Assembly: GCF_003044275.1 (NCBI RefSeq)
Contig: NZ_PZPL01000001.1
Location: forward strand, 3,804,018-3,868,017
Length of the DNA: 64,000 bases
From: Rathayibacter caricis DSM 15933
GTDB lineage: Bacteria > Actinomycetota > Actinomycetes > Actinomycetales > Microbacteriaceae
Direction: 5' to 3'
Shown piece after piece: positions 1 through 27,622 of the stretch (positions are counted from its first letter, which is position 1; each line of letters starts with the position of its first letter). A program made the translations under genes and the position numbers. Below the pieces are notes generated by a model, which saw only the letters and a program-made list of their open reading frames with translations, made no database searches and had not been told where the DNA came from.

Positions 1-453
1 GACGAGCTGCGTCAGGCCGACGCTGACGAGGGCGGCGACGGCGTAGTACAGCGCGGCCCAGCGCCTCCGGAACACGAGCAGGACGGCCACGATGGCCAGC
101 GGGATGATCGCGGTGCCGGTGATGCCGGCGCCGACCGTGTTCATGATCAGGGCGGGGATGTCCCAGACGCTCGAGCGGTGCTCGACGACCTCGTCCATCC
201 ACTCGACGTCGAAGCCGAAGGCGGTGGTGGGGCGGTAGGCGATCATGATCGCGAGGACGACGGTGATCAGCAGGGCGATCGACGCCGAGATGAGCGGCCA
301 GCGGCGCGAGACGCGGTGCGCGACCTCCTGCGTGAGGACCTTGGTCGCCGCGGGGTCCGCGGACGGCGCGGCCGTGGTCATCCGCTCGCGCTGCACCGCG
401 TCGGGGGACGCCGACGCCGGCTCGGTCGGGGGGCGGTTCTCGCGGTTCACCAT
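1..453 (-). CDS. PAP2-family phosphatase-like membrane protein, partial (3' end outside window)
   Basis: The gene starts at 453 and runs off the left edge, leaving about 151 residues. A polar Ala/Pro-rich N-terminus of about 50 residues is followed by a hydrophobic helix (ISASIALLITVVLAIMIAY), a loop beginning with an acidic stretch (VEWMDEVVEH), and two more hydrophobic helices. This order resembles the N-terminal half of PAP2 (phosphatidic acid phosphatase type 2) membrane phosphatases, but the catalytic KxxxxxxRP / SGH / SRxxxxxHxxxD motifs would lie outside the window, so the family call is an inference. An in-frame ATG at 381 is an alternative start; neither start has a strong ribosome site. 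Confidence 0.5.
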   Translation of the reverse strand, partial: MVNRENRPPTEPASASPDAVQRERMTTAAPSADPAATKVLTQEVAHRVSRRWPLISASIALLITVVLAIMIAYRPTTAFGFDVEWMDEVVEHRSSVWDIPALIMNTVGAGITGTAIIPLAIVAVLLVFRRRWAALYYAVAALVSVGLTQLV

Positions 454-532
454 ATGGACATGATGCCGCGATGGCCGTTCACCTTGCGGGGGCTTGCGCC
501 GGGCGCGGGGCGCTGCGTTCGGGCGGTGCTGT

Positions 533-897
533 GCGCGATCTGCAGGGGTCTGCGCGATCTGCAGGGGTTCCGGAGGGGAACTCGCTTTCCTCCGCGGGGA
601 CCCCTCGCCGACAGCGGGATCCCCTGCGAATCGTGCAGATGCCTGCAGATCGTGCGGGGGCCTGCAGATCGGACGACGGCGCCTCGGTCGGTGCGATCTG
701 CAGGGGTTCCGCGCCGGAACACGCTTCCCTCCGGACAACGGCGTCGGGATCGCCCGGATCCCCTGCAGATCGCACTGAGGCCTGCAGATCGCACCGAGGC
801 CTGCGAATCGTGCAGAGGCCTGCAGATCGCACCGGGGCCTGCAGATCGTGCAAGTCCCTGCGGATCGCACCGGGGCCCCGCGGATCGCACCGAGGGA
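533..897. repeat. Array of GCGATCTGCAGG / CCTGCAGATCGC repeats in two inverted composite units
   Basis: This gene-free interval holds at least 12 copies of a 12-14 nt core, GCGATCTGCAGG or its complement, spaced about 18-20 nt apart. Copies are oriented: GATCTGCAGGGG copies at 533-571 are followed by a roughly 45 nt spacer and then CCTGCAGATCG copies to about 671. A second unit starts with GTGCGATCTGCAGGGGTT at 691 and, after about 45 nt, ends in a run of CCTGCAGATCGCACC copies from 756 to 897. Both spacers are bounded by GGTTCC and GGATCCCC. The same composite recurs at 27459-27622. I know of no named family that matches it. No open frame in the interval looks like a protein. Confidence 0.85.
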
Positions 898-911
898 GGA
901 GGAGCCGCGCG

Positions 912-2174
912 TCAGTCCTGCAGGGCGGCGACCGTCCGCGGGCGGACGATCAGCCAGAGCGCGAGGATCGAGACGGTCGCGGTCGCCATCATGACCAGGG
1001 CCATCGGCACGGCGGAGGACGCACCGAAGATCCCGGAGATCGGCGAGAGCAGGCCGGCGACTCCGAAGTTCACCGCACCCAGCAGCGACGCGGCGGTGCC
1101 CGCCTCCCTGCCGTGGTTCACGAGGCCCAGCACCTGCACGCAGGGGAAGCTGAAGCCGCAGGAGGCGATGAACAGCCAGAGCGGGACGAGCGTGCCCCAG
1201 AGTCCGAAGCCGAGGACGTCGAACAGCGCGATCAGCCCGGCCGACGTGAAGAGCGACACGGTGGTGATCGCGAGGATCCACTGCGGGCCGACCCGGCGGC
1301 TGAGGCGCGAGGACGCCTGCACGCCGAAGACGACTCCGAGCGAGTTGACCGCGAAGAGCAGGCCGTACTGCTGCGCGTCGAAGCCGTAGAGGCCCTGGAA
1401 GAGGAAGGAGGAGCTCGAGAGGTAGGTGAAGAGGCCGGCGAAGGTCATGCCTCCGATGACCGCGACGCCGACGAACTGGCGGTCGCCGAGCACCGAGCCG
1501 TAGCGCTGCGCGAGGGAGCGGCGATCGCGGTCGTCGCGCGCGGTCCGCGGGCGGGTCTCGACGATGAGGAGCGCCACGGCGACCATCACGACGAGGCCGT
1601 AGCCGGCGAGGAAGACGAAGACTCCGCGCCAGTCCATGACGAGCAGGAGCTGCGAGCCGATCACCGGGGCGAGGACGGGAGCGAGACCCGACACCAGGGC
1701 GAGGCGGGAGAGCATCTTGACGAGCGGACGACCGCCGAAGAGGTCGCGGACCATCGCCATGGCGACGACTCCGCCCGCCGCGGCACCCGCGCCCATCAGC
1801 ACGCGGAACACGCCGAGCCAGACGATGTCGGGCGCGAAGGCGGCGCCGATGCAGGTGAGCACGTGCACGGCCGTGGCCAGGATCAGCGGCAGCCGGCGCC
1901 CGACCGCGTCGCTCCACGGCCCCACGATCAGCTGGCCGAGGGCGAAGCCGAGCGTCGTGCCGGTGAGGGTCAGCTGCACCGCCGCCTCGGACACGTTCAG
2001 CTCGCTCTGCAGCACCGGGAACGCGGGGAGGTAGAGGTCGATCGTGAACGGGCCGAGCGCGGTGAGCGCTCCCAGAACGATGATGTAGACGAGCCGCTGA
2101 CGCGCGGTCAGGGCGTCGCCGGGGTGGCGGTGGACGGGGACGGAGCCGGTGGGCGTCGAGGCGACGGTGGTCAC
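912..2174 (-). CDS. Bcr/CflA-type multidrug efflux MFS transporter
   Basis: The 420-residue protein is a 12-helix major facilitator antiporter that should export drugs or other small molecules across the cytoplasmic membrane. The first loop carries the MFS motif-A variant GPWSDAVGRRLPL after helix 2, and the first helix ends in FTIDLYLPAFP, which is characteristic of the Bcr/CflA (DHA1) group. I start it at the GTG at 2174 because AGGAAGG lies 6-8 nt upstream; the open frame continues to an ATG at 2264, but those 30 residues are Ala/Pro-rich and unlike the family. It stands alone, 200 nt from the GH42 gene, with a repeat array downstream. Confidence 0.9.
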   Translation of the reverse strand: MTTVASTPTGSVPVHRHPGDALTARQRLVYIIVLGALTALGPFTIDLYLPAFPVLQSELNVSEAAVQLTLTGTTLGFALGQLIVGPWSDAVGRRLPLILATAVHVLTCIGAAFAPDIVWLGVFRVLMGAGAAAGGVVAMAMVRDLFGGRPLVKMLSRLALVSGLAPVLAPVIGSQLLLVMDWRGVFVFLAGYGLVVMVAVALLIVETRPRTARDDRDRRSLAQRYGSVLGDRQFVGVAVIGGMTFAGLFTYLSSSSFLFQGLYGFDAQQYGLLFAVNSLGVVFGVQASSRLSRRVGPQWILAITTVSLFTSAGLIALFDVLGFGLWGTLVPLWLFIASCGFSFPCVQVLGLVNHGREAGTAASLLGAVNFGVAGLLSPISGIFGASSAVPMALVMMATATVSILALWLIVRPRTVAALQD

Positions 2175-2376
2175 GGAGGCCTTCCTGCGCAGGAGCGCGG
2201 GGAGCGGAGCTGGAGCGGCTGGAACGGCCGCGAGGAGCGGCGCCGGACCCTCGGATCCGTGCACCGCTCCTCACGCTAACCGCCGAGAGCGCCTGTGTAC
2301 TCCCCCTCGGTCGAATTGATTCGACTATCAGTCCATGCGAGGACGTGATCGGCGCGATCCGAGACCGGGAGCGCTC

Positions 2377-10054: not shown

Positions 10055-10154
10055 GATCTCGATACGCCCGCTGCGCGGGCTACTCGATCAGCAAGAGGGA
10101 GGCGGCGGATCCGTGCCTGCTGGTCGAGTAGCCCCGGAGGGGCGTATCGAGACC
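10055..10154. repeat. Palindromic intergenic element, outer arms TCTCGATACGCC / GGCGTATCGAGA
   Basis: A nested inverted repeat spans 100 nt: outer arms (GATCTCGATACGCC at 10055, GGCGTATCGAGACC at 10141) and inner arms (GGCTACTCGATCAGCA and TGCTGGTCGAGTAGCC). The same design occurs at 15798-15885. It sits between the binding-protein gene and the permeases, the only feature apart from a small hairpin in this 302 nt gap. Confidence 0.85.
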
Positions 10155-27422: not shown

Positions 27423-27458
27423 GGCGGAGCCGTCCGCCCCCGCTGCGAACTCCCCCGT

Positions 27459-27622
27459 ACGAACTGCAGGCCTCCGCACGATCTGCAGGCCCGCGCACGA
27501 TCTGCAGGGCCGTGCACGATCTGCAGGGCACTGTGCGATCTGCAGGGGATGTGCACCCGGCGCGACGGCAGCAGGCGGAGGAATCCGCTTGCCGGCCCGG
27601 ATCCCCTGCGAATCGTGCACCG
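27459..27622. repeat. Third GATCTGCAGG composite repeat array
   Basis: Five forward cores (ACTGCAGG, then four GATCTGCAGG at a roughly 19 nt period) are followed by a spacer of about 50 nt and a reverse copy GGATCCCCTGCGAATCGTGC. The spacer resembles those at 533-897 (it includes GGAGGAATCCGCTTGCC). It sits between a hypothetical gene and the serine hydrolase gene. Confidence 0.8.

Follow-up and report, generated by a model that had tools for sequence, protein, structure and literature searches.

The best-known pairing of one enzyme gene with dispersed repeats is the REPIN-RAYT system, or REPtron. In the parts of the literature compared here, REPINs are described as dispersed, intergenic inverted doublets with a preferred spacing and a variable spacer (PMC3116915), the underlying repetitive extragenic palindrome (REP) as carrying a GTAG or CGTC tag at one end (PMC3733652), and the RAYT gene as flanked by two REPs and evolving rapidly along with them (PMC2817692). 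The BOX element of Streptococcus pneumoniae is also a composite repeat with a strain-variable number of modules; the description compared places this variation in the middle, between end modules, and names no partner gene (PMC3049150). Here we describe a repeat array at positions 532-891 of a 64,000-nt stretch of Rathayibacter caricis DSM 15933, referred to below as the window, which is the final 64 kb of a 3.87-Mb contig in a 4.12-Mb genome of two contigs (G000). The array comprises two copies of a short interspersed element, and the element family appears to belong with a fast-changing nuclease whose gene two of its copies bracket. As in REPIN-RAYT, inverted words are paired at a preferred spacing and the partner gene lies between two repeats and changes with them. 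In contrast to REPIN-RAYT, the partner is an AbiEi-like protein with a Vsr/EDxHD nuclease domain and not a Y1 transposase, the arms are tandem 19-nt units, and the spacer shows little covariation. Unlike BOX, the element varies in its opposed arms and keeps its core fixed.

The original prediction had claimed at least 12 copies of a core in opposed runs around a single spacer bounded by GGTTCC. A search allowing up to 3 mismatches to a 15-nt unit found 13 copies at 532-891, 3 forward and 10 reverse, with a 19-nt period. GCGATCTGCAGG with at most one mismatch occurred 16 times in the window, against a mean of 1.13 and a maximum of 4 in 100 shuffles of the window, and 10 of the 16 were at 535-868. 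A centre of the form GGTTCC...GGATCC was found as claimed, but there are two such spacers (566-622 and 705-761) rather than one, and we therefore read the cluster as two side-by-side composites (551-637 and 690-776). The claim that this is not a CRISPR array held, since the units are opposed and contiguous with no equal unique spacers (cas genes were outside the search). The repeat cluster is real and larger than first described, and a third composite lies at 27456-27619 of the window, arms included. The features are as follows.

532-565, plus strand: forward arm of composite 1, two units with a 19-nt period (15-nt cores at 532 and 551)
551-637, minus strand: core of composite 1, 87 nt, with the centre motif on the minus strand (sequence-model match)
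566-622, minus strand: centre of composite 1, 57 nt (GGTTCC...GGATCC), with a variable part and the GCGGAGGAAAGCGAGTTCC motif
623-675, minus strand: reverse arm of composite 1, units at 623, 642 and 661, that at 623 being a GATTCGCAGG variant
690-776, minus strand: core of composite 2, 87 nt, with a single forward unit at 690 (sequence-model match)
705-761, minus strand: centre of composite 2, 57 nt
762-891, minus strand: reverse arm of composite 2, seven units at 762, 781, 800, 819, 838, 857 and 877
27456-27546, plus strand: forward arm of composite 3, five units
27532-27619, plus strand: core of composite 3, 88 nt (sequence-model match)
27605-27619, minus strand: reverse arm of composite 3, one unit, a GATTCGCAGG variant

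The array of 13 units sits between a PAP2-type gene (1-453, minus strand) and an MFS-type gene (912-2264, minus strand), both named from a reading of their translations. Exact CGATCTGCAGG occurs 96 times in the genome, 57 of them within the listed arms. Among the isolated copies outside arrays, 32 of the 35 checked lay inside called genes and 3 outside, with the remaining 4 of the 96 unclassified. The core outside the arrays behaves as a chance occurrence, and the view that it might be an ordinary frequent 12-mer did not survive the genome-wide search. The surroundings of the CGATCTGCAGG matches yielded 22 composites in 18 arrays and the sequence model added two more at 1155408-1155614; therefore, the genome holds at least 24.

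In each element, two inverted sites (TGCAGG...CCTGCA) together span 69-70 nt and enclose a variable centre, where the GCGGnGGAAnGCGCnTTCC motif lies to one side. The innermost forward and reverse units were 72 nt (5 composites) or 73 nt (17 composites) apart in all 22, when a few weak unit-like matches within centres (e.g., L026, 1664; L036, 1743) were ignored. In an unfiltered count over all loci collected by then, with overlapping loci counted more than once, 196 of 229 innermost convergent pairs were at 72-73, the next offsets being 31 (7 pairs) and 38 (6 pairs). A single-orientation alignment of the 22 composites, with one gapped column, reads TGTGCGATCTGCAGG-GGATCCG-about 20 variable nt-GCGGnGGAAnGCGCnTTCC-CGGATCC-CCTGCAGATCGCACG, the spacer being less conserved than the inverted words, as in REPINs. 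The centre motif may resemble a LacI-type operator. Outward, each arm runs on for 1-8 tandem units of 19 nt; at up to 6 mismatches, the 44 arms contain 106 units. Positions 3-4 of the 15-mer are CA or TG, a complementary swap, in 75 of these 106 units, and CT at positions 9-10 is replaced by TC in 6. A codon-usage gene caller places the 18 arrays between genes, apart from an 18-nt overlap of one array with a called gene end, and a further array (L407) likewise lies between called genes. Two of the 19 known arrays on contig C1 of this genome are located between 1.5 and 3.44 Mb, and no dnaA-like start was recognised in the first 4 kb of that contig. The 18 arrays occupy 6 convergent, 9 co-directional and 3 divergent contexts, compared with 4, 26 and 5 for window gaps longer than 30 nt, and a bias in intergenic class was not upheld (Fisher p 0.07).

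Two of the arrays, N and O, bracket an open reading frame between dapA and thyX, outside the window. Its product matched the DUF559 profile, with MTES_1575 and AbiEi_4 both below the cut-off, and is composed of an AbiEi-like domain in the N-terminal half fused to a Vsr/EDxHD-type nuclease domain, in which the Vsr-like catalytic fold and the conserved acidic/His residues of EDxHD nucleases are present; mitoribosome chains were also among the Foldseek matches. A homologue was found in 7 of the 15 genus genomes at 71-100% identity and in two others (G009 and G012) at 40-42%, and all nine adjoin dapA. The other six genomes gave best matches of 32-40% or none, and some of the nine have paralogues elsewhere at 31-41%. 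The dapA-adjacent gene has a composite on both sides in all nine Rathayibacter genomes in which it was found. Both dapA and thyX were matched at eight of these loci and dapA alone at the ninth (L421). In G009 and G012 the units differ (GGAAATGCAGG type, in 19-nt steps), the TGCAGG...CCTGCA span remains 69, and most centres retain GCGGATGAGAGCGC-like sequence. Gene replacement in these two genomes was not demonstrated, because monophyly of the Rathayibacter nucleases was not rejected (approximately unbiased test, p 0.477). The gap between dapA and thyX measured 1226-1592 nt in eight occupied loci, 61 nt in G003 and G005, which lack both gene and elements there, 229 nt in G013, and 437 nt in G010, where it holds another repeat family. 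The homologue in G007 (L419) has one in-frame stop, with both bracketing elements kept. Element copy number differed between genomes with and without a homologue at p 0.045 (6 versus 6 genomes; G007, G009 and G012 left out), which is weak because the model was built on G000 and counts can include both strands.

A classical REP or REPIN moved by a RAYT would account for inverted pairs at a fixed spacing with a variable spacer. However, Y1_Tnp (PF01797) was found in none of the 15 Rathayibacter genomes, the same search being positive in 5 of 14 control genomes, and no GTAG or CGTC end tag was seen in the element consensus and alignment. Thus, the element system is not a member of REPIN-RAYT, RAYT was rejected as the partner enzyme, and, barring a diverged HUH enzyme, we give this explanation next to no weight.

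The partner protein also differs from the described proteins that share its parts. It has an AbiEi-like N-terminal half, which sets it apart from the EDxHD homing endonuclease I-Bth0305I; no intron was seen here and the gene is bracketed by dispersed paired elements. Unlike the AbiEi antitoxin of type IV toxin-antitoxin systems, the protein carries a nuclease domain of its own, and the genes next to it at the shared locus are dapA and thyX; these were the only neighbours annotated, and neither is an AbiEii nucleotidyltransferase toxin. VsrA of Caulobacter shares the DUF559/Vsr-like nuclease domain and is proposed as a mismatch-repair endonuclease; its context in the description compared is mismatch repair and methylation, and repeats do not appear in that description (PMC12907096). 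By analogy, the gene here could encode a Vsr-type repair or restriction-like nuclease with incidental flanking repeats, but such an enzyme would leave the bracketing and dispersed elements of matching design unexplained, and we regard it as highly improbable.

The association was also examined across the Microbacteriaceae, in which a homologue at E 1e-30 or better occurs in 110 of 398 genomes and 39 of 85 genera. From among the best-scoring matches, 23 non-Rathayibacter loci were subjected to a flank test, in which words common to the upstream and downstream flanks were compared with 100 shuffles (50 control windows, 50 shuffles each). Flank similarity was above all shuffles at 18 of the 23 loci versus none of the 50 controls. 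The same was true of 6 of the 9 Rathayibacter loci, the other three having drifted arms that the unit search sees, and of 5 of 20 in-genus paralogues, with other words (L427, on a short contig, was left out). At 14 of the 23 loci (15 with L459), both flanks carry an inverted pair whose word is identical or almost identical, and the arms are lineage-specific, namely, AAATGCAGGAGAT, GTTGTGCAGGAG, AAATCAAGGAGAT, GAATGAAGGAGAT, AAATCACGGAGAT and ATCTCAAGGAGT. The fetched stretch contained dapA at 15 of the 23 loci, and 7 of the other 8 still exceeded every shuffle. In G391, 43 of the 45 spans among the matches listed were 69-71 nt, with 59-89 allowed, and elements at 1975064-1975134 and 1976139-1976209 lie on either side of a second paralogue (37% identical; 1975181-1975978). 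Beyond the gene, TGCAGGA-N45..75-TCCTGCA occurred 54, 35, 31, 25, 17, 15, 15, 12, 11, 11, 10, 5 and 3 times in 13 homologue-bearing genomes, once or twice in G000, G001, G012 and G396, where the arms or the following base differ, and 0-3 times in 11 genomes with no homologue match at E 1e-30. Dispersal was seen in most genomes with TGCAGG-type arms, and these counts cover TGCAGG-type words and not the own words of CAAGGAG-, GAAGGA- and ACGGAG-armed genomes. These results establish the association between gene and element.

Among relatives, the presence of elements varies between species. Two tandem CTGCAGG units were present in 11 of the 15 genus genomes, and the tandem-unit pattern with one extra base required was found in 10 of the 398 family genomes and 3 of the 85 genera. 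The sequence model at E 0.01 or better matched in all 15 genus genomes, with 2-69 matches each; a single element may be matched on both strands, and G012 gave nothing better than E 0.0024. Relatives were compared at 17 of the 18 sites, and 32 of 69 comparisons, at 9 sites, had no unit at up to 3 mismatches. Some of the empty gaps hold other sequence and others are closed: at site E the closed gap is 0-5 nt versus 280-360 nt, and at the window's own site it is 0 nt in G013. The closest relative, G004, has units at all 17 compared sites, with unit numbers differing at most of them, and at site I a model match lies on the matching contig. Between G000 and G004 (18 of 20 pairs used), unit cores differed at 15 of 396 positions and the variable centre at 49 of 373 (Fisher p 3e-6), where exchange between units could contribute to the constancy of cores and detection required a recognisable core; the centre motif differed at 33 of 342 positions, which was not significant (p 0.16).

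Relatives thus show both occupied and empty states at orthologous sites, which, together with the gene bracketed by elements, agrees with the earlier idea of a mobile miniature element. The same polymorphism is what relics of a separate transposase, similar to miniature inverted-repeat transposable elements, would leave, with the nuclease gene as a passenger or neighbour, and the six genus genomes that carry elements with no homologue above 40% also suit that account. Against it, the elements that bracket homologous genes are specific to the lineage, both at dapA and at other loci, and Y1_Tnp was not found in the 15 genomes (other transposase families were outside the search). We consider such relics improbable.

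A transcript-folding element had also been suggested, but was not supported. Hairpins are strongly predicted on both strands (with no shuffle comparison) and some arrays lie directly 3' of gene ends, as would be expected of a terminator or an mRNA-stabilising hairpin. However, only 4 of the 14 pairs in the consensus fold had any two-sided change, with a covariation term of -0.65 kcal/mol, and RNA structure was set aside as the basis of the element. The centre motif lies on either strand relative to genes (4 versus 6 of 10 elements with respect to same-direction neighbours), and the array at site B is located beyond the apparent own terminator hairpin of the upstream gene. Rfam gave no matches at gathering score in the window. 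An RNA-level element is therefore very unlikely in our judgement.

The fixed spacing, the constrained cores and the AbiEi-like half of the partner protein favour the third earlier idea, a protein-binding array, and the main rival explanation builds on it. In this explanation, the protein is an AbiEi-type autorepressor or global regulator that uses the bracketing elements as operators and the dispersed copies as additional binding sites (for silencing, insulation or local DNA structure), and its nuclease domain plays no part in moving them. AbiEi proteins are described as binding paired inverted repeats in their own promoter (PMC7319586), the N-terminal half of the partner is AbiEi-like, and between G000 and G004 the cores have changed less than the variable centre has. 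An operator role fits less well with the element that also follows the stop codon in all nine Rathayibacter loci, with dispersed copies that have no consistent promoter position across the three gene contexts, and with element presence that varies between species. We rate the regulator as unlikely, though it deserves more attention than the other alternatives.

Instead, we lean somewhat towards a system that works like REPIN-RAYT without being homologous to it, in which the nuclease would recognise the paired sites and spread or maintain the elements. We infer binding, cleavage and mobilisation from the sequence comparisons. Two protomers would bind the inverted arms via the AbiEi-like domain, and the nuclease domains would act on DNA between or beside the bound arms. 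Repair or strand transfer could then copy or home the element into other intergenic sites. The fixed spacing would be the footprint of the dimer and the tandem units extra binding sites. The unit sequence would change between lineages because nuclease and site co-evolve, as has been described for RAYTs and REPs, although the enzyme here is unrelated.

Several observations weigh against this proposal. The AbiEi-like match is only moderate. Six of the 15 genus genomes have 7-54 model matches but no homologue above 40%, and the gene is absent at the dapA locus in G003, G005, G010 and G013, which were those inspected. Flank similarity was not above the shuffles for 15 of the 20 in-genus paralogues, and L428 and L429 (40-41% identity) have no common flank words. 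The arm types AATGCAGG, CAAGGAG, ACGGAG and GAAGGA do not form single groups on the tree. In 12 occupied/empty comparisons at 6 sites, no clear target duplication was seen, the flanks having diverged. Looking for near-identical centres turned up only orthologues and near neighbours, and no distant loci that share one; there is thus no sign of recent dispersal, although centres decay quickly. Finally, all nine Rathayibacter loci and 15 of the 23 other-genus loci adjoin dapA; because most loci do so, much of the association represents one inherited locus and not independent events. The independent part consists of the loci away from dapA and the second paralogue in G391.

Other repeat families and DUF559 paralogues were found in the same genomes. 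DUF559 genes in general were rejected as partners, as only one of eight own-genome DUF559 matches, that between N and O, has adjoining arrays; another, L339, has one lone unit-like match. A GGCTCG-type family, GGCTCGCGGAATCGGCTTC, also has a 19-nt period and opposed runs. It occupies the window's own site, after the MFS gene, in G003, G006, G008, G010 and G011 (L220, L221, L222, L219 and L224), and in G006 a different DUF559 paralogue (L443) has it on either side. A third, palindromic family, GTCGAGTAGCC...GTATCGAGACC, lies in several of the same intergenic slots in other species (L310, L331, L335, L321 and L323), with one 11-nt match in the window at 10123-10133. At site G, other species carry further palindromes of the ACAAGTAAGGCTGGA and GAGATGCCACTTGTGCACG types (L301, L320 and L331). 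A centre-pattern match in another genus (L383, G161) was discarded as a longer repeat of another kind. Distant DUF559 paralogues (L440, L442, L433 and L438) have their own common flank words, e.g., CAACCGAGGTTG and CAACCTCGGCTGAGAG, and are possibly further enzyme-repeat pairs. An open-access literature search, with most subscription journals outside it, gave no paper on the element among the matches listed and no paper combining DUF559 and inverted repeat.

A broader proposal, which we offer tentatively and with less conviction than the mechanism above, is that these pairs constitute a new class of mobile repeat system. An AbiEi-like EDxHD/Vsr nuclease gene, largely inherited at one locus, would drive its own paired-site family through a genome in a reaction resembling homing, and enzyme and sites would turn over jointly, making the system a convergent counterpart of REPIN-RAYT across the Microbacteriaceae. 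Different DUF559 paralogues would each have their own repeat family, the GGCTCG family beside L443 being the would-be second. If this is true, a second, unrelated enzyme has come to stand in the same arrangement as RAYT, and such pairs would arise repeatedly. At least one branch of the DUF559/MTES_1575 proteins would thereby be given a function, and the enzymes and their sites would form a natural series for testing the joint change of recognition and repeats. Some of the intergenic repeats that are unannotated in the Microbacteriaceae would be explained as well.
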